In this document: one piece after another, positions 3,505 to 60,336 of the stretch
Layout of the letters: the number at the start of each line of letters is the position of its first letter
Position numbering within the stretch: the stretch's first letter is position 1
Assembly (NCBI GenBank): GCA_020444065.1
Contig: JAHLLQ010000002.1
Coordinates: 620,001-684,000, forward strand
DNA length: 64,000 bases
DNA from: a bacterium
Lineage (GTDB): Bacteria; Sumerlaeota; Sumerlaeia; SLMS01; JAHLLQ01
Direction of reading: 5' to 3'
Program-made: the position numbers and the translations under genes
The notes under the pieces: model-generated
Told to the model about the DNA's origin: nothing
Databases searched by the model: none
The model's input: only the letters and a program-made list of their open reading frames with translations

Positions 3505-5097
3505 TCAACGGCCGGAAAGGATCGTTGAACGATAGGCCAGGGTCACCGCGTTGAGCTCTGCGATATCGATAGATCCATTGCGGTCCGCGTCCGCGCTGGC
3601 AGGAGCCGCGACCGCTCCACGGAATGACAGAATCGTCGCGTTCAACTCGCCGAGGCTCACTCGTCCATCGCCATCTTCGTCCCCCGGCAGGACAGCCGGC
3701 GTGGGGGTCGGCGTGATCGTCGGGGTGGGCGACGGCGTGACAGTCGGGGTGGGTGTTGGAGTCGGAGTGGGAGTCGCAGCGACTGGGAGCTCCAGGCTCA
3801 GGATGTTCGCGAAACCACGTCCGCTGAATGACGGGAAGGCGATGATTCGATCGCCGACGGCCGATTGGCGGATCGACATCTTTGTGAACGAGCCGCCGGG
3901 GAAGTACTGAATCCGCGTAATCCAAGATGTGTTGATGCCCGAAATCGACGTGTCGAAGGAGTAGAGGCGGCTCTCCGCCGTGCTGGAGCTGGCGCTGGTT
4001 CGCATCATGAAGACGCCGTACAGCCCATCCTCAGTCAGGCACAGCGGATCCAGGTTCTCCTCCCCCAGGTGCATCTCATCCGATTCCGGCATGAAACTGC
4101 CACGGTAGGTCAAGGTCCCGTCCGAGTTGATCGTCAGGTAGTTCACCCCGACCGGAGTGCCGCCGGCGGGGGATTGGCCGACGAATGCCAGCGTATCGGC
4201 GCGGGAGAGCATGAAATCTCCGCCCCGGACCGCGCCGGCAGTCGTGATGTCGCCCGTAATCGGCGTCAACGTGCCGGTCTGTGTCGCATCGAATCCCATC
4301 AGCAGTCCGCCATTCGAGATCGCCACATATGCGTAATTCCCATCGTCGGAGAAAGCCACCGACCCATCAGAGAATGCCGCCAGCGACCGTGTGTACGACG
4401 CGACCTCGATTAACTCGTAGGTCGCCGGATCGATCGAATAGAGATAGAGCTGGAGTTCAGAACTCCGGCCCGGCTGCAGCAGAGCCAGCATCGAACCGTC
4501 GACCGAGATGTCGATATCGACGATGAAACCATTGCGATTCTGAAAAGAGGCGAATTCCGACGCCGTCCCGTCGCCATTCGGCGCCAAACCAAACACGTAG
4601 CCCTGCAACTTGCTGCCCGAGATGTAGCCTCGCAGGAACGCAAACCGTCCGAGCGGATCGACCTTCAATTCCTGCCAGTAGCTGGGAACCGTTGAGACAG
4701 CCACTGTTCCCGCCTGCGACATGACGCCGCTGGCCGGGTTGATTCGCAGGAAGTCGACGTTTCCGGAAGGCAATGACGTAGCCACGCCGAGCGTTCCATT
4801 CCTGGAGACGTTGCTGAATGTCGAGTTTGGCGAGGACGGCGCCTCGTCCAGCGTCGCGTAAAAAGTCCCTTCAGTATTGGCGTTTGCAGTGATTCCCGTC
4901 CCGCCCCAGACGGAACTTGGCCCCGAGCTGAAGATCAGATTCCCCGATCCATCGATCGAATGAAAGTACATCTCTGCATTGCTGAACTTACCCGTCTGTA
5001 CTAACTCCCCCGGAACGGCCGAGGATGAACTGGTCAGCAGCAATGCGCACAGGAAGGCTAGCGCCGAAACGAGCCGGCGACGAACACTGCAAGTCAT
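3505..5097 (-). CDS. Secreted beta-propeller-like protein with C-terminal dockerin-like domain
   Basis: A 530-residue exported protein. Residues 1-28 form a signal peptide (basic MTCSVRRR, hydrophobic core, SSSSAVPG). Residues about 40-440 carry repeated beta-rich units such as DPLGRFAFLRG and FSDDGNYAYVAISNGG, like seven-bladed lactonase/YVTN-type propellers. A Pro-Thr linker (TPTPTPT) follows, then two dockerin type I calcium-binding loop-helix repeats: GDEDGDGRVSLGELNATI and ADADRNGSIDIAELNAVT. Function of the propeller is unknown. The tail predicts binding to a cohesin-type partner, or simply calcium-stabilised surface attachment. The start is the only good one before the signal peptide. 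Confidence 0.85.
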   Translation of the reverse strand: MTCSVRRRLVSALAFLCALLLTSSSSAVPGELVQTGKFSNAEMYFHSIDGSGNLIFSSGPSSVWGGTGITANANTEGTFYATLDEAPSSPNSTFSNVSRNGTLGVATSLPSGNVDFLRINPASGVMSQAGTVAVSTVPSYWQELKVDPLGRFAFLRGYISGSKLQGYVFGLAPNGDGTASEFASFQNRNGFIVDIDISVDGSMLALLQPGRSSELQLYLYSIDPATYELIEVASYTRSLAAFSDGSVAFSDDGNYAYVAISNGGLLMGFDATQTGTLTPITGDITTAGAVRGGDFMLSRADTLAFVGQSPAGGTPVGVNYLTINSDGTLTYRGSFMPESDEMHLGEENLDPLCLTEDGLYGVFMMRTSASSSTAESRLYSFDTSISGINTSWITRIQYFPGGSFTKMSIRQSAVGDRIIAFPSFSGRGFANILSLELPVAATPTPTPTPTPTVTPSPTPTITPTPTPAVLPGDEDGDGRVSLGELNATILSFRGAVAAPASADADRNGSIDIAELNAVTLAYRSTILSGR

Positions 5098-22778: not shown

Positions 22779-24776
22779 ATGCAACATCTCACTCATTCTG
22801 TGCAGAAGATTTCGCGGTGGCGCAACGTCGCGGCCGCCGGAATCCTCTCGCTACTTGTTAGTTTCGCTATCGCAGAACCGTCCGCTCGCAACGGCATGGG
22901 AGCCATTCCATACGATGGCGGCGTGACTTTTCGTGTGTGGGCGCCGAACGCAGACACCGTTTCCGTGGCTGGCCAATTCAACGGATGGAGCAGCTCTTCC
23001 AATCTTCTCTCCCCAGAAGACGGTGGGATGTGGTCCGCCGACGTTGCTGCAGCGGAGGCCGGCGACCAGTACAAGTACGTGATCAAGACTGATGGCGATA
23101 CGATGTGGAGAACCGATCCACGTGCAGGCGCTGTCGTCAATTCCGTCGGCAATGGCATCATCGTCGATCAGGACAGCTTCAACTGGACTGCCGACTTCAC
23201 GATGCCATCCTGGAACGAGACGATCATCTACGAGATGCACGTTGGGACGTTCTACTCTCCGACTGGGGGAACGCCGTCTTCGTGGTACTACGCCACTCAG
23301 AAGCTCGATCACCTGGCCGACCTGGGCATCAACATGATCGAGGTCATGCCCATCAACGAGTTCGCAGGCGATCATTCCTGGGGCTACAACCCCGCGCATC
23401 TCTTCGCGCCGGAGAGCGCGTACGGCTCCGTCCACGACATGAAGAATTTCATCAACGAAGCCCACAAGCGCGGCATCGGAGTGATGATCGACGTGGTCTA
23501 CAATCACTGGGGGCCCAGCGATCTCGATACGGCTTACTGGTGCTTCGATGGACCGTGCTACGACAACGGTGGGATTTACTTCTACGACGACTGGCGGGCC
23601 GTTACAGAATGGGGCGACACGCGGCCGAACTACGGTCGCTCCGAGGTGCGCGATTTCATCTCAGACAATGCCTATTTCTGGCTGAACGAGTTCAACGCCG
23701 ACGGATTGCGATGGGACTCGACCAGCAACATCCGCACGCAGAACAGCGGCGGCGGAGGAGACATCGGCGATGGCTGGTGGACGATGCAGATCGCCAACGA
23801 TCGCATTGATGGAACCTGGCCCGAGAAGCTGATAATCGCCGAAGATATGCTCAACAACGAGTGGCTGACGAAAACCACCGGGGCCGGGGGTGCGGGCTTT
23901 GACTCGCAATGGGACTCCAGCTTTGTGCATACGATTCGCAACGTGATCATCACAGGCAGCGACAGCAATCGCAACATGTGGGACGTGTACGACATGCTCG
24001 TTCACGGCTACAACAATGAGCCCTTCCAGCGCGTCATCTACACCGAAAGCCACGACGAAGTTGCCAACGGAAAGGCGCGCGTTCCGGAGGAGATCTGGCC
24101 CGGCAATTCCGACAGTTGGTTCTCGCGCAAGCGCTCCACCGCCGGAGCGGCGTTACTTTTCACCGCGCCGGGCATTCCAATGATCTTCCAAGGCCAAGAG
24201 TTCCTGGAAGATGGATGGTTCCACGACGACGATCCCTTGGATTGGTCGAAGCGCACCACGCAGTCGGGAATCTACGCTCTGTACCGCGACCTGGTTCACC
24301 TGCGCCGCAATATCGATGGCACGACACGGGGTCTGACTGGTGAGGGCCTCAATATTCACCACGTCAACGATGGCGCAAAGGTCATTGCCTATCATCGCTG
24401 GATGAACGGTGGCGAAGGCGACGACGTTGTTGTGGTCATTAACTTCTCGGCGACCAGCTTCACCGAGTATCGCGTGGGCTTCCCACGTGCAGGCGCATGG
24501 CACGCCCGGTTCAACAGCGACGATTCAGACTACGGCGCAGACTTCACGAACCTTGGCAATACCTTCGTGGAGACAGAAGATATCGATCGCGACGGAATGG
24601 GCCAGAGTGCGAAGTTCACGCTTCGTCCGTACACGGCGATCATCTTCTCGCAGGGCGGCGACGTTGTCGCCCCGGCGGACGTTGATGTTGTCGATGCGAT
24701 TCTCGGCAAGCGCACCGTCCCGGATAATTACGACGCGAACCAGGATCGCACTTTGGACATCGCGGACGTGAATTAG
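22779..24776 (+). CDS. Secreted GH13 alpha-glucan enzyme (branching-enzyme-like) with dockerin-like end
   Basis: A 665-residue exported glycoside hydrolase family 13 protein. A hydrophobic signal (NVAAAGILSLLVSFAIA) lies near 17-32, an N-terminal CBM48-like domain at about 45-130 (FRVWAPNADTVSVAGQFNGW), then a TIM barrel. Region I is DVVYNHWGP, the nucleophile Asp313 is in DGLRWDST, the acid/base Glu355 in LIIAEDM and the third acid Asp426 in YTESHDEV. This order resembles 1,4-alpha-glucan branching or trehalohydrolase-type enzymes; export argues for a role on external glucan. The last about 30 residues (DVDVVDAILGK ... YDANQDRTLDIADVN) look like a dockerin type I module, ending at the second calcium loop. 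Confidence 0.88.
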   Translation: MQHLTHSVQKISRWRNVAAAGILSLLVSFAIAEPSARNGMGAIPYDGGVTFRVWAPNADTVSVAGQFNGWSSSSNLLSPEDGGMWSADVAAAEAGDQYKYVIKTDGDTMWRTDPRAGAVVNSVGNGIIVDQDSFNWTADFTMPSWNETIIYEMHVGTFYSPTGGTPSSWYYATQKLDHLADLGINMIEVMPINEFAGDHSWGYNPAHLFAPESAYGSVHDMKNFINEAHKRGIGVMIDVVYNHWGPSDLDTAYWCFDGPCYDNGGIYFYDDWRAVTEWGDTRPNYGRSEVRDFISDNAYFWLNEFNADGLRWDSTSNIRTQNSGGGGDIGDGWWTMQIANDRIDGTWPEKLIIAEDMLNNEWLTKTTGAGGAGFDSQWDSSFVHTIRNVIITGSDSNRNMWDVYDMLVHGYNNEPFQRVIYTESHDEVANGKARVPEEIWPGNSDSWFSRKRSTAGAALLFTAPGIPMIFQGQEFLEDGWFHDDDPLDWSKRTTQSGIYALYRDLVHLRRNIDGTTRGLTGEGLNIHHVNDGAKVIAYHRWMNGGEGDDVVVVINFSATSFTEYRVGFPRAGAWHARFNSDDSDYGADFTNLGNTFVETEDIDRDGMGQSAKFTLRPYTAIIFSQGGDVVAPADVDVVDAILGKRTVPDNYDANQDRTLDIADVN

Positions 24777-54119: not shown

Positions 54120-54593
54120 ATGAGAGCCTTCCTGCTTGTACTGTGCCTTTCGATCTCAATGGCAGGGCTGACCGCATGCAAATCCGTCCCAGCCGTCGAA
54201 TACACAAAGGACGAGGCTGGGCGCGTCTCCGCCGATCTGCTGAAGATCCGTACCGCCGTGGTCGGCGAGGATCTCGCTCCGGAGAAGGCGTTCGAGACCT
54301 ATGCCCCCTCCGCCGTGAAGGATGGGAAGCTCCCGATTCTCATCAGCGCGGATTCGACGGATGAGGATCTGATCAATTCGATCAAGGAAAGCGGCCTTCA
54401 GATCCGTGGAGTTTACGATTTACCATCAGACCTCCACCACATCACCGCGTATCTCACTGATCCCCGCCAACTTGACGACCTGGTCTCGCGTTCCGACATC
54501 AGGCAGATTGTGATCGATAACCCCGAGGCGACCCTGCATCCGAACGGCCGTCGGCCCCAGCCGCCTCCACCAAATGTGCCCAAAATGCCATAA
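54120..54593 (+). CDS. Lipoprotein paralogous to the adjacent protease propeptide
   Basis: A 157-residue lipoprotein: signal peptide with lipobox Leu-Thr-Ala-Cys20. Residues about 35-145 match the N-terminal region of the protease encoded 168 bases downstream, sharing for example SADLL/SSDLL, the spacing of GKL...IS.D, SGLQI-x-G/QGLQI-x-G, YDLP-x-DLHHI and ATLH/PTLH. The protein has no protease domain of its own. It probably arose by duplication of the propeptide and could inhibit or chaperone the protease at the outer face of a membrane, which is inference. GAGGGGG precedes the ATG. Confidence 0.8.
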   Translation: MRAFLLVLCLSISMAGLTACKSVPAVEYTKDEAGRVSADLLKIRTAVVGEDLAPEKAFETYAPSAVKDGKLPILISADSTDEDLINSIKESGLQIRGVYDLPSDLHHITAYLTDPRQLDDLVSRSDIRQIVIDNPEATLHPNGRRPQPPPPNVPKMP

Positions 54594-54760
54594 GCCACTA
54601 TGGTTTTGGCATTTGTGCAGCGCGATGTTTTGATTGCCGACCGCGCGCTTCCGACTTAGCATAAGAATGAACGGTTTTTCCCGTGCATGCAGTACTTGCC
54701 TCCCTCCTTGCAGATCCTTAGGAAGGCGGGAGGATTTCATTCATGGAGGTCACCCATAAT

Positions 54761-57319
54761 ATGAAGAGACTTCTGCTCGGAGGTCTTCTGATCCTGGCGG
54801 CCGGTGGTTTGAGCGCTGCGGATCTCAATCCCAAAATGGCCTATCTGACCGATGGCGATGCGGGACTCGTAAACATGTCCAGCGACCTGCTTCAGGCTCG
54901 ACTGGAAGTCCGCAAGGGCGCGTCCGCCCGCGCGGTGCTCGATCAGTTCCCGAAACACGCCATTCGGAACGGCAAACTGCAGTGCATCATCAGCGTCGAT
55001 GCGATCACTCCTGAGATCATCGACCAGGTGAAGAGCCAAGGGCTGCAGATTGTCGGCACCTACGATCTTCCCGGCGACCTGCATCACATTGTCGTCCACG
55101 CCACAAACCCGCTCCAGTTCGACAGCATCGCCCGCAGTTCCGGCGTTCGCGCAGTTGTCGTCGAGCCCGAGCCGACCCTGCACGTTGGAGCCGTCACATC
55201 TCAGGCCGATTCGGCAATCGGTGCAGCCACAGCCCGCACTAATTTCTCGGTCGACGGAACCGGACTTCGCGTCGGCGTCCTCAGCGACAGTGTTCACGAT
55301 GTGATCGGCGGCACCCTGTCAGGGGGATTCCTCACAGGTTCCTCATCCCAGGGCACCGGCGACCTGCCGGCCAGTCTTCGCGTCATCGATGCCGGCCCCG
55401 GCGGCGGCACTGACGAGGGCGCCGGCATGGCGGAGTTGGTCTACGATCTGGCCCCCGGCGCTGATATCTCCTTTGCATCTGCCTTCAGCGGATACAGCGC
55501 ATTTGCTTCGAACATCACGGCACTCGCGACCGATGCCGGCCTGGAATGCGACGTCATCTGCGACGACGTCAGCTATTCCGTCGAGCCCGTCTACCAGGAT
55601 GGCCCGATTGCGCTTGCCGCACAGAATGCCGTAGACTCTGGCATTCCTTACTACTCCAGCGCCGGCAATCAGACTGACGACGGCCACGAGCGTCCTTACA
55701 CCGACGCGAACTCTGGAACCGACGACCTGGTCTTCCCGCCCACGGGCAACGATCTGCATGACTTCGGTTTGGCAATGGGGTTGTCCTCCGACACGCATCT
55801 GCAGTTCACCCTTGCGAACGGCGAAGCAATCACTCTCGGCTTGCACTGGACCGAACCGTACGGTGGAACTTACGGCGCCGGTCCGGGCTCTGAGGCCGAC
55901 TACGATCTCTACATTGTGAATAGCGCCACACTTCCCGTCACCAATCCCATGGTCCTGGCAGCAAGCACAAATGTCCAGGGCACAAGTGGCTCGCCCAGCG
56001 GACCGGCTTTCGAAGGTTGCTCTTACCAGAACACCACCGGAAGCCCCCAGACTGTTTACGTGATTATTGATCACTACGACGGCAAGAAGGACGACGACAT
56101 TCATCTCTGGGTCAAGTACGACGGATCCGGCGGTATCGACGACAAGGTCTTGCTGACTGACCGCACGCTCTTCGGCCATGCCGCGGCACCGGGAGCAATC
56201 GCGACTGGCGCCATGCTCTACTTCGAGATCTCCACCGGCGGAAATGCCTATGCGCCGAACGGTGTTCTCAACGTAAACAGCTTCTCGTCGCTCGGTGGCG
56301 ATCTGCCATTCTACTTCGATAGCACCGGCGCGCTGCTCGGAACGGTTGAGACCCGCGCCAAGCCGGAAGTCACGGGCCCCGACGGGGCTGACACGACGTT
56401 CTTCGGCAGCGGCGATTGGGACAGCACCAGCTTCCCGAACTTCTGGGGGACTTCTGCGGCCGCTCCGCACGTTGCAGCCGTTGCAGCCCTGATGCTCGAG
56501 CGAAATGCCGCGCTGACTCCTGCGAACCTGAATCAGATTCTGATCAACACAGCAGTCGATGCGGAAACCGCCGGATGGGACTCTCTATCCGGACACGGTG
56601 TCGTTGATGCGCTGGCCGCTGTGACAAACGCGGTTTCGACACCTCCGACCGTGACAATCGATGAGAACGCTTCGCAGGATGATCCGACGAATACATTGCC
56701 GATCGTCTTCGACGTGGTCTTCTCGGAAGATGTCACTGGATTCACCGGCGGTGCCGATGTTTCCTTCTCCGGCACGGCCTCGGGAATCACCTACAACATC
56801 ACCGGCGGACCGGCCAGCTATCAGGTCAACGTCACCGCCATCACATCTCCGGGAACCGTGATCGCCAGCATCCCATCAAGTGCCGCCAACAGCGTTGGCA
56901 CGGGCCTTGGCAACACGGCCAGTTCCTCGACCGACAACAGCGTTACCTACGACAACGTGAGCCCGACGATGGATACGCTGCAGGCAGCCGCCGGACAGGC
57001 CGATCCTGCAACGACTCTGCCGATCAACTTCACGGTCGACTTCGACGAAGCCATCAACGGCTTCGATGCCAGCGACGTTGACACATCGGCATCGACTGCA
57101 TCGGGAACACTCACAGTGGGGATCACCCCCTCATCTCGTGGCACCAGCGGACCGTTCACAGTCTCTGTCGATGGCGCGGCCGGCGCAGGCGATATCACGA
57201 TCAGCATCATTGGCGGCGGTATCACCGACGACGCCGGCAATACGGTGAACGCCAGCGGCAGTGCCACCGTTACCTACAATCCGGCTGCCGCCGTGGAAGA
57301 ATGGTGGGTTGTTAAGTAA
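54761..57319 (+). CDS. Secreted subtilisin-like (S8/S53-type) protease with Ig-like domains
   Basis: An 852-residue exported protease. Signal peptide 1-20, propeptide about 25-145, catalytic domain about 160-625. Catalytic Asp176 (VGVLSDSV), oxyanion Asn303 (SSAGN) and Ser565 (GTSAAAPHVA) are clear. The histidine position is Glu219 in TDEGAGMAELV, a sedolisin-like substitution. A jelly-roll insertion fills about 320-460. Two Ig-like beta repeats follow (about 635-735 and 740-845). The ATG at 54761 has GGAGGT 10 bases upstream and begins the signal peptide; an ATG at 54743 is less likely. Confidence 0.88.
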   Translation: MKRLLLGGLLILAAGGLSAADLNPKMAYLTDGDAGLVNMSSDLLQARLEVRKGASARAVLDQFPKHAIRNGKLQCIISVDAITPEIIDQVKSQGLQIVGTYDLPGDLHHIVVHATNPLQFDSIARSSGVRAVVVEPEPTLHVGAVTSQADSAIGAATARTNFSVDGTGLRVGVLSDSVHDVIGGTLSGGFLTGSSSQGTGDLPASLRVIDAGPGGGTDEGAGMAELVYDLAPGADISFASAFSGYSAFASNITALATDAGLECDVICDDVSYSVEPVYQDGPIALAAQNAVDSGIPYYSSAGNQTDDGHERPYTDANSGTDDLVFPPTGNDLHDFGLAMGLSSDTHLQFTLANGEAITLGLHWTEPYGGTYGAGPGSEADYDLYIVNSATLPVTNPMVLAASTNVQGTSGSPSGPAFEGCSYQNTTGSPQTVYVIIDHYDGKKDDDIHLWVKYDGSGGIDDKVLLTDRTLFGHAAAPGAIATGAMLYFEISTGGNAYAPNGVLNVNSFSSLGGDLPFYFDSTGALLGTVETRAKPEVTGPDGADTTFFGSGDWDSTSFPNFWGTSAAAPHVAAVAALMLERNAALTPANLNQILINTAVDAETAGWDSLSGHGVVDALAAVTNAVSTPPTVTIDENASQDDPTNTLPIVFDVVFSEDVTGFTGGADVSFSGTASGITYNITGGPASYQVNVTAITSPGTVIASIPSSAANSVGTGLGNTASSSTDNSVTYDNVSPTMDTLQAAAGQADPATTLPINFTVDFDEAINGFDASDVDTSASTASGTLTVGITPSSRGTSGPFTVSVDGAAGAGDITISIIGGGITDDAGNTVNASGSATVTYNPAAAVEEWWVVK

Positions 57320-57349: not shown

Positions 57350-57388
57350 GCCCGGCGCCCCAATAGTGGGCGCCGGGCTTGTATTTTC
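57350..57388 (+). terminator. Rho-independent terminator after the protease gene
   Basis: GCCCGGCGCCC (57350-57360) pairs with GGGCGCCGGGC (57368-57378), followed by TTGTATTTT. It lies 31 bases after the protease stop. Confidence 0.9.
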
Positions 57389-57686: not shown

Positions 57687-58940
57687 GTGCGAGCCATCGT
57701 GGAAACCCACCAGCTATCCAACGGCCTGACCGTCTATACGGTCGAGAATCACGTCATCCCCCTGGCAACACTGGACATGTGGGTGCGAGTCGGATCCAAG
57801 GACGAGCCCACCGAGCATGCCGGCATCAGCCATTTCCTGGAACACATGCTCTTCAAGGGCACAGACCGCCTGGCGGTGGGGGAGTACGATCGCCGCATCG
57901 AAGAACTTGGCGGCTACCTGAACGCAGCCACCAGCACCGATTACACGCATTACTACATCACGCTTCCCAGCGAGAGCCTCGAGAAGGCCATGGAAGACAT
58001 GGCCGATGTCGTCCGGAACTCGAAGATCGATCCGCGCGAAGTCGATCGCGAACGACTCGTCATTCTTGAAGAAATTCGCATGAAGCAAGACAATCCGCTC
58101 GCATTCTTGTACGACGAGATTGTCCGCTCCATCTACGCGACGGGTCCGTACGCGAACACCGTGATCGGCAGCCACGAGAGCGTCTCCGCGATGAAGCAGG
58201 AGACAATCCTCTCGCACTACCATCGTTTCTACTCGCCGCAGAACATGGCGTTGGTCGTCGTCGGTGATATCGATACGCAGCGCATCGTTGTTCGTCTCGA
58301 AGAACTCCTTGGCGATCTGGAACGTCCCGTCGACCCCTGGCGCGGTGCCGCACCCAAAACCGAATACGCAGAATCTCCCGGTCGCACCTGGGATCGCGAC
58401 TGGCAGCAGCACTACTTCTTCCTCGCCTATCCAGGCGTTGCCTGCGACTCGATAGAGACGCTGGCGAAGCTGGAGATCGCCGAGACCCTTCTGCTCGGCG
58501 GACGCAGTTCCCGCCTCGTCAATGCGATTCAGGAGAAGAAGCGCCTCGTCACATCGATTTCAGGCTTCATCCATCCGACGCGTCATCCGGGCATGGTTGG
58601 AATTTACGGAACCTGTGAGCCGCAGAACCTGGACGCCGTTCGCGAAGCGATCGACGACGAGATTCGCAAGCTGCGCAACGACGGCCCGACGGACCGCGAA
58701 ATGCGACGGGCCATGCGCCAGATCATCAACTCGCACCTTTACAGCACAGAGACGAATACGGGAAAGGCCCAGACGATCGGATACAGTTATGCGCTGTTCG
58801 ACGATCCGTGTCTGCTGGATCGATTCCCGGATGCAGTGGGTCGTGTGGTCGAAGAGGACGTTGCAGAAGTCCTGGACTTATTGGCTCCGGAGAAGGCCAG
58901 CCAGTTTGTGGCACGGCCTGCTCGGGCCGCGGCGAGATGA
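57687..58940 (+). CDS. M16 zinc peptidase, active subunit
   Basis: A 417-residue pitrilysin-type peptidase. The inverted zinc motif HFLEH (His49, Glu52, His53) and the downstream acidic ligand in LEEIRMKQDNP (about 128-129) are intact. The N- and C-terminal halves are M16-like, with TNTGKAQTIGYSYAL near the end. No signal peptide. The gene begins with a GTG; no good ribosome binding site. It pairs with the following lipoprotein-type M16 homologue, as in many two-subunit M16 systems. Confidence 0.92.
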   Translation: MRAIVETHQLSNGLTVYTVENHVIPLATLDMWVRVGSKDEPTEHAGISHFLEHMLFKGTDRLAVGEYDRRIEELGGYLNAATSTDYTHYYITLPSESLEKAMEDMADVVRNSKIDPREVDRERLVILEEIRMKQDNPLAFLYDEIVRSIYATGPYANTVIGSHESVSAMKQETILSHYHRFYSPQNMALVVVGDIDTQRIVVRLEELLGDLERPVDPWRGAAPKTEYAESPGRTWDRDWQQHYFFLAYPGVACDSIETLAKLEIAETLLLGGRSSRLVNAIQEKKRLVTSISGFIHPTRHPGMVGIYGTCEPQNLDAVREAIDDEIRKLRNDGPTDREMRRAMRQIINSHLYSTETNTGKAQTIGYSYALFDDPCLLDRFPDAVGRVVEEDVAEVLDLLAPEKASQFVARPARAAAR

Positions 58941-58947
58941 CGCCGAC

Positions 58948-60336
58948 ATGGAGAATTGCCGGGCCCCATTGCTGCTGGCTGCTGCCCTGGCCGCCCTGCT
59001 GATTCTCAGCGGATGCGTACGCAATACCCAGCCGATCACCGCGTCGCCCATCGCGCCCGTGACCGGCCAGACGATTGACTATCAAGTCGGAGAGATTAAC
59101 GTGCACCGATTTCCCAACCGCCTGACAATGATCCACCGTCAGAACCAGACAAATCAGATTGTTGCGGTCACTTGCTTGATCCGCCCCGGAGCCGCCCAGG
59201 ACCCGGACGACAAGATCGGCCAATCACGGCTGATGATGCGTACGCTGACGAAAGGCACGAAGAATCGCACCTCCGACGAGATCGCCGAAGAGCTCGAAGA
59301 TCTCGGCGCAAGCCTCAACACGTCCGATACGTACGATTACGTTGCGGTTTCTCTGAAGTGCGTTCGCTCCGACCTCGACAAGACACTCGATATCTTCGCC
59401 GACGTTATCCGGCACCCAACTTTCCCGCAGGAAGAACTGGACGCCGAGAAGACCCGCCAGTTGGCAGAGATTCGAATTCGCGAAGACCGTTCGCCATCTG
59501 CCGTCATGACTCGATTCCGCGGACAACTCTTTGGCGCTTACCCCTACGGTCGCCCTCTCGAAGGCCAGCCGGAAATCGTCTCCGCCCTGACCCAGCGCGA
59601 TGTCGGAACCCTGCATGAGCAGGTCGTTCGACCGGAAAATATGGTGATATCGCTCGTCGGAGATGTTGATGAAGAAGAAGCCCGGATGCTCATCGACAAG
59701 TACTTCGGCGACATGGCGGATTCCGGCAGCCAGCGCGTGGACGCACGGAAGAGCTTTGCGCCGTCCGGTTCTCGCTTTGAATTCGTTCGCGATGTCGAGC
59801 AGGGCTTCGTTGCCCTCGGCCACGTCACCTGCCCGATCGACGACGAAGATGCGCCCACCGTCGAGGTCGCTTCCGCGGTCTTGGGACGCGGAATGTCGTC
59901 GAGGCTCTTCTCCGAATTGCGCGATCGCCAGTCGCTCGCCTACATGGTCGGCGCCTCGGCCAACGAGATGTACACTGCCGGATACTTCGTTTCCTATATC
60001 GCCACGTCCCCACAGACTGTCGATAAGGCGCTGAACGGCCTTTGGGAGCAAATCGAGCTCCTCCGCTACGAGCCGGTCACCGACGAGGAACTCGACCGCG
60101 CCCGTACATACCTGATCGGCGGGTACTTGCGCGGCCACGAGACCAACTCCCAGCAGGCTTACCACTTGGCCAACTGGCAACTGGCGGGCATGGGCGTGGC
60201 CTACGACGAAATCTACCCCGATCGTATCCGAGCCGTCACGAGCCGAGACGTCATGCGGGTCGCCAACAAGTACTTCCTCGACCCGACGGTCGTCATTCTT
60301 CGTCCGATGGGAAAGAAATCGCCTGCCTCCGAGTGA
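58948..60336 (+). CDS. M16-family lipoprotein, catalytically inactive subunit
   Basis: A 462-residue M16 homologue with a lipoprotein signal (LLILSGC23). It has the family fold (SQRVDARKSFAPSG; the C-terminal LGRGMSSRLFSELRDRQSL segment), but the HxxEH site is replaced by GQSRLMMRTL, so it has no metal centre. It lies 7 bases after the active subunit. Known two-gene M16 systems combine an active and an inactive partner. The signal implies export, while the partner lacks one, so whether they meet is uncertain. Confidence 0.88.
   Translation: MENCRAPLLLAAALAALLILSGCVRNTQPITASPIAPVTGQTIDYQVGEINVHRFPNRLTMIHRQNQTNQIVAVTCLIRPGAAQDPDDKIGQSRLMMRTLTKGTKNRTSDEIAEELEDLGASLNTSDTYDYVAVSLKCVRSDLDKTLDIFADVIRHPTFPQEELDAEKTRQLAEIRIREDRSPSAVMTRFRGQLFGAYPYGRPLEGQPEIVSALTQRDVGTLHEQVVRPENMVISLVGDVDEEEARMLIDKYFGDMADSGSQRVDARKSFAPSGSRFEFVRDVEQGFVALGHVTCPIDDEDAPTVEVASAVLGRGMSSRLFSELRDRQSLAYMVGASANEMYTAGYFVSYIATSPQTVDKALNGLWEQIELLRYEPVTDEELDRARTYLIGGYLRGHETNSQQAYHLANWQLAGMGVAYDEIYPDRIRAVTSRDVMRVANKYFLDPTVVILRPMGKKSPASE

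Follow-up and report, generated by a model that had tools for sequence, protein, structure and literature searches.

A small lipoprotein encoded directly upstream of a secreted subtilase-like protease is homologous to the prodomain of that protease, and we infer, with about even confidence, that it is a trans-acting inhibitor of its neighbour that serves in self-protection. Both genes lie in the window (the whole stretch of 64,000 nucleotides analysed), which comes from a 5.2 Mb genome of the phylum Sumerlaeota. The features of the locus are as follows:

54120..54593, forward strand: lipoprotein gene, a stand-alone prodomain of 157 aa with lipobox LTA-C20, prodomain at about residues 24-140 and Pro-rich tail at 141-157 (PNGRRPQPPPPNVPKMP)
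54594..54742, forward strand: intergenic gap of 149 bases between lipoprotein and protease genes, with no terminator-like site and no catalytic-domain remnant
54743..57319, forward strand: secreted subtilase-like protease gene, 858 aa, with signal peptide, prodomain (about 27-149), catalytic domain (about 150-630) and C-terminal region to 858
54818..55189, forward strand: segment of the protease gene that encodes the prodomain (residues 26-149), the homologue of the lipoprotein
55175..55198, forward strand: predicted autocleavage region, residues 145-152 (TLHVGAVT), where the family has its conserved G-x-V
57350..57378, forward strand: strong terminator-like hairpin 3' of the protease gene, 11 G-C pairs followed by TTGTATTTTC, closing the two-gene unit

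The lipoprotein gene is the first of the unit, and the genes upstream of it run in the opposite direction. The two genes look like one transcription unit, since the gap contains no terminator-like site and the region 3' of the protease gene has a strong one. A scan for sigma-70 promoters found none, an Rfam search gave no match, and the intergenic region folds no better than its shuffles (z -0.64) when examined for a regulatory hairpin. The lipoprotein frame is intact, has a codon signal like that of the neighbouring genes and is preceded by a G-rich stretch before its ATG. The protease may instead start at 54761, which is M7 when the longer form is numbered. Elsewhere in the window, a pair of M16-type peptidase genes lies after the protease gene (57687-60336), and an M16-type peptidase gene also lies directly upstream of a related protease in another genome (G024, locus L054). 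Dockerin-like EF-hand repeats are found at the ends of two secreted proteins (3505-5097 and 22779-24776; GDEDGDGRVSLGELN... and VDVVDAILGKRTVPDNYDANQDRTLDIADVN).

The original prediction held that the lipoprotein matches the propeptide region of the adjacent protease and shares with it the motifs YDLP-x-DLHHI and GKL...IS.D. Both motifs are present, and BLASTP confirms the match, with 47 of 120 residues identical (39%; 59% similar, E 5e-23) between lipoprotein residues 24-140 and protease residues 30-147. Aligning the two regions, as had been proposed, gave a local alignment score of 231, against a maximum of 57 among 500 shuffles of the lipoprotein. The homology is confined to the prodomain and stops at the start of the protease catalytic domain; the signal peptides of the two proteins can be aligned at low identity. 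Genome-wide, the protease is the best match of the lipoprotein, and no other protein matches as well. A frameshifted or split protease was considered and rejected: the gap and the upstream region contain no remnant of a catalytic domain, and the similarity of the two genes at the DNA level has decayed until they can no longer be aligned.

The predicted secondary structure of the lipoprotein (E51-58, H63-71, E75-82, E86-93, H96-103, E108-113) and the VIA-align ranking of its model both bear on its fold. The best VIA-align match is the prodomain of the Thermococcus pro-subtilase ProN-Tk-SP (3afg; Z 8.4 over 84 residues, rmsd 2.5). Pro-subtilisin E, fervidolysin, the A. fumigatus protease propeptide, the subtilisin BPN' prosegment (1spb_P, Z 5.8) and POIA1 (1v5i_B, Z 5.6) follow at Z 5.6-6.3, interspersed with other ferredoxin-like proteins. 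The ferredoxin-like fold is a common one, and the fold alone is weak support, because known prodomains are mixed with other ferredoxin-like proteins in this ranking. Foldseek returned no match to the lipoprotein model with E below 0.001. The assignment as a prodomain is therefore based on VIA-align combined with the homology to the protease's N-terminal domain; the model of the protease itself matches 3afg_B along both prodomain and catalytic domain (345 residues, Z 27.4). The Pfam and NCBIfam propeptide models match neither the lipoprotein nor that N-terminal domain; one relative matches the Fervidolysin prodomain model PF22148 weakly (E 0.088). The lipoprotein is thus homologous to the N-terminal domain of the protease alone, and that domain is well supported as a subtilase-type prodomain by its predicted fold and position; the label "propeptide" given to the shared region is upheld on the same grounds.

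What the lipoprotein has gained and lost relative to the protease copy is concentrated at its two ends. Near the N-terminus, inspection identifies a lipobox, MRAFLLVLCLSISMAGLTA-C20, of the bacterial lipoprotein type, which the protease copy lacks; lipidation at Cys20 is plausible from this motif. Lipidation and an outer membrane are also plausible for the host, because its genome encodes signal peptidase II (PF01252) and an Omp85 protein. At the C-terminal end, relatives have a conserved G-x-V junction ahead of the catalytic domain, whereas the lipoprotein has TLH-PNGRRPQPPPP, so that the junction octapeptide reads TLHVGAVT in the protease and TLHPNGRR in the lipoprotein. The ranges aligned by structure end at residue 77 of 1spb_P, residue 76 of 1v5i_B and His140 of the lipoprotein. 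In subtilisin, an acidic pair of the prodomain, E69/D71, caps helices of the catalytic domain (PMC6993865); plausible counterparts of this pair are E141/E143 of the protease and D133/E136 of the lipoprotein. This pair and the catalytic-domain alignment suggest a cleavage site two residues beyond His140, with a register uncertain by about 2 residues; whichever register applies, the scissile bond of the lipoprotein contains or adjoins a Pro. This Pro and the lipobox would suit the role of a lasting inhibitor in trans better than that of a substrate. The lipoprotein keeps 18 of the 40 columns conserved in its closest proteases.

The protease matches PF00082 (E 4e-15), and its model aligns with subtilases at Z 26-28. 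Ser571 (in GTSxxxP), the oxyanion Asn309 and Asp182 are conserved. The place of the subtilase catalytic His64 is taken by Glu225, in the motif DEGxxM. This Glu is invariant in 11 of 11 aligned proteases and is the first residue (model residue 200) of the corresponding helix (model helix 200-211). The S8 label of the original prediction therefore holds for the subtilase fold and not for the catalytic His. In sedolisins (S53), the triad is Ser-Glu-Asp, its Glu and Asp share one helix, and the oxyanion hole contains an Asp. The present enzyme has a Glu at the His place, yet it keeps the S8-type Asp182 and Asn309 (AGN); it also carries a paired Asp274-275. It thus differs both from standard S8 members, in having no catalytic His, and from the serine-carboxyl group, which is defined by Ser-Glu-Asp (PMC11593635). 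Judged by its residues and model, it combines the subtilase fold with a Glu in the His position and lies outside standard S8 membership, and the conservation of its active-site residues suggests that it is catalytically active. The same DEGxxM Glu-for-His arrangement, with Asp, Asn and Ser kept, defines a Sumerlaeota group comprising this protease and nine further loci (L008-L013 and L016-L018). A short C-terminal motif resembling VADWTVY, VADWQIY or VEEWWVVK is found at 57270-57319 and in three of these loci (L009-L011), and could be a sorting or anchoring signal.

The two copies of the prodomain have diverged for a long time. Pairwise NG86 estimates are dN 0.59 and dS 1.66 (dN/dS about 0.35), and third codon positions are 39% identical, against a random level of 33%, whereas amino-acid identity is 40%. 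The pattern points to an old duplication constrained at the protein level. In neutral simulations with 0.8-1.5 mutations per site, merely 2.5-6% of frames remain open. In a tree of the N-terminal domains, the lipoprotein groups with its own protease with moderate support (85-91%), on a branch about four times longer (1.8-2.2, against 0.4-0.5 for the protease copy), in line with faster evolution. AU tests leave placements with other proteases unrejected (p 0.11-0.15), so that the lipoprotein is likely, short of proof, the sister of its own protease's prodomain. Derivation from the neighbour's propeptide, as originally claimed, is to that extent favoured by the tree.

The survey covered 40 Sumerlaeota genomes and about 350 others (386 relatives in another count). 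Of the 40 Sumerlaeota genomes, 30 contain the prodomain family at E 1 or better; all matches at E 0.001 or better lie in large frames except the lipoprotein, so that no other stand-alone copy is significant. Among the roughly 350 genomes from outside the phylum, a single one has a match, again in a large frame. A search for the pair in other genomes had been suggested as a check, and the stand-alone lipoprotein beside its protease was found in this genome only among the 40 Sumerlaeota genomes and the 350-386 others. An additional scan of genome contigs added one relative, a protease. Orthologous proteases in five genomes (G001, G036, G035, G024 and G022) have no adjoining lipobox gene of similar size. 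Short frames in G021, G035 and the host genome (G000) were discarded as noise (E 0.1-0.8). Two lipoprotein-like frames near the protease of G007 are 350-400 aa long and unmatched by the prodomain profile. Since the stand-alone copy occurs in one genome alone, the pair is either a lineage-specific invention or has closer relatives that are unsampled. The host encodes about 15 subtilase-family genes, many of them in frames that exceed 1000 residues.

The following model can be proposed for the pair. A partial duplication probably copied the protease's own prodomain, and the copy would now work in trans. After export and lipidation at Cys20, the lipoprotein would be kept at the cell envelope, where it could bind its neighbour's catalytic domain in the way known for the prodomain in cis and place its C-terminal stretch ATLHP in the substrate cleft. 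Having lost the conserved junction and carrying a Pro in or next to the scissile bond, the lipoprotein should resist cleavage there; the result would be a lasting inhibitor that shields the envelope against prematurely active or re-adsorbed protease. Binding, inhibition, self-protection and the side of the membrane are all parts that we infer in this model. Inhibition is favoured because the protease retains its own prodomain for folding. If true, the pair shows the birth of a protease inhibitor from the protease's own prodomain, relocated to the membrane beside its target. With the parent gene still adjacent, the origin of propeptide-like inhibitors could be tested on this pair, both partners of which can be produced without the lipid anchor and are simple to assay.

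Other roles have to be weighed against inhibition. Two points suit a product that aids the folding of the protease at the envelope: prodomains are commonly chaperones, and in this unit the lipoprotein gene precedes that of the protease. Such a trans-acting foldase would resemble ORF2 of Aeromonas sobria, the chaperone encoded just downstream of the protease ASP that requires it, in an arrangement repeated as asp-orf2 operons in four further genera (PMC5638518). The protease here has a complete prodomain of its own, unlike ASP, and its relatives lack any such partner, which makes a foldase unlikely. The lipobox and the prodomain homology would also suit a surface anchor that retains the mature protease at the cell surface through the prodomain-catalytic contact and keeps its products near the cell. 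Binding at the prodomain site would block the active site, however, and leave an enzyme held in this way without activity until the lipoprotein was cut, and we regard an anchor as quite improbable.

Occurrence in a single genome means that no conservation stands behind the stand-alone form, which counts against a function; together with the fast branch and the many conserved columns lost, it could point to a neutral or decaying product of partial tandem duplication with no present role. The intact frame with its neighbour-like codon signal and the G-rich stretch before the ATG speak against decay, as do the dN/dS of about 0.35 with third positions near saturation, the small chance of an open frame under neutrality, and a lipobox that the protease copy is missing. 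We consider such a relic rather unlikely. The lipoprotein might instead target another protease, of its own cell or of competitors, given the number of subtilase genes in the genome and one further protease with a distant version of the prodomain (C1:583687, E 1.3e-6). Since its closest relative by a wide margin is the neighbour, encoded in the same unit, this seems highly improbable.

We know of no free inhibitor of MEROPS family I9 that derives from an adjacent parent gene, and Plasmodium SUB1 is a classical Ser-His-Asp subtilase, unlike the Glu-type protease here. Inhibition has precedents in SUB1-ProM, in the free inhibitors of I9 and in Spi (PMC6993865; PMC2873492), and a foldase has one in ORF2 (PMC5638518). 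In Plasmodium, the propeptide-like ProM inhibits SUB1, which is encoded next door; that pair is eukaryotic, related by predicted structure and conserved across the genus (PMC6993865). The free inhibitors of family I9 (Pleurotus POIA1, yeast peptidase B inhibitor and Arabidopsis SPI-1), as well as TgMIC5, are known (PMC6993865). The I9 proteins likewise have the prodomain fold as a separate small protein, and the POIA1 structure aligns with the lipoprotein model, although they are eukaryotic and not bacterial lipoproteins. Isolated propeptides can inhibit very tightly and selectively (PMC10580911).

Other parallels are bacterial. In Streptococcus pyogenes, a propeptide analogue, Spi, is encoded beside the protease SpeB and inhibits it, and self-protection has been proposed; SpeB is a cysteine protease of family C10 with another propeptide, and Spi is not called a lipoprotein in that account (PMC2873492). 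Bfi1B and Bfi4 of Bacteroides fragilis are predicted lipoprotein inhibitors beside their own C10 protease, but they are staphostatin-like and not propeptide-derived (PMC2873492). ASP and ORF2 also form a bacterial two-gene unit of subtilase and separate helper; ASP, which a study cited by PMC5638518 calls propeptide-deficient, has no propeptide of its own and needs its chaperone, whereas the protease here keeps its prodomain (PMC5638518). In Myxococcus xanthus, the subtilisin-like PopC is complexed with PopD, which differs in blocking PopC secretion from inside the cell (PMC6434023). Set beside these systems, the pair may, as we put forward tentatively, be a Glu-type subtilase under the control of a lipid-anchored copy of its own prodomain that resists cleavage. 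Such a copy would be an immunity-like inhibitor that originated through partial duplication of the protease gene, perhaps the first for a bacterial subtilase. Propeptide-like pairs are known elsewhere; the lipid-tethered form beside this type of enzyme appears to be new.
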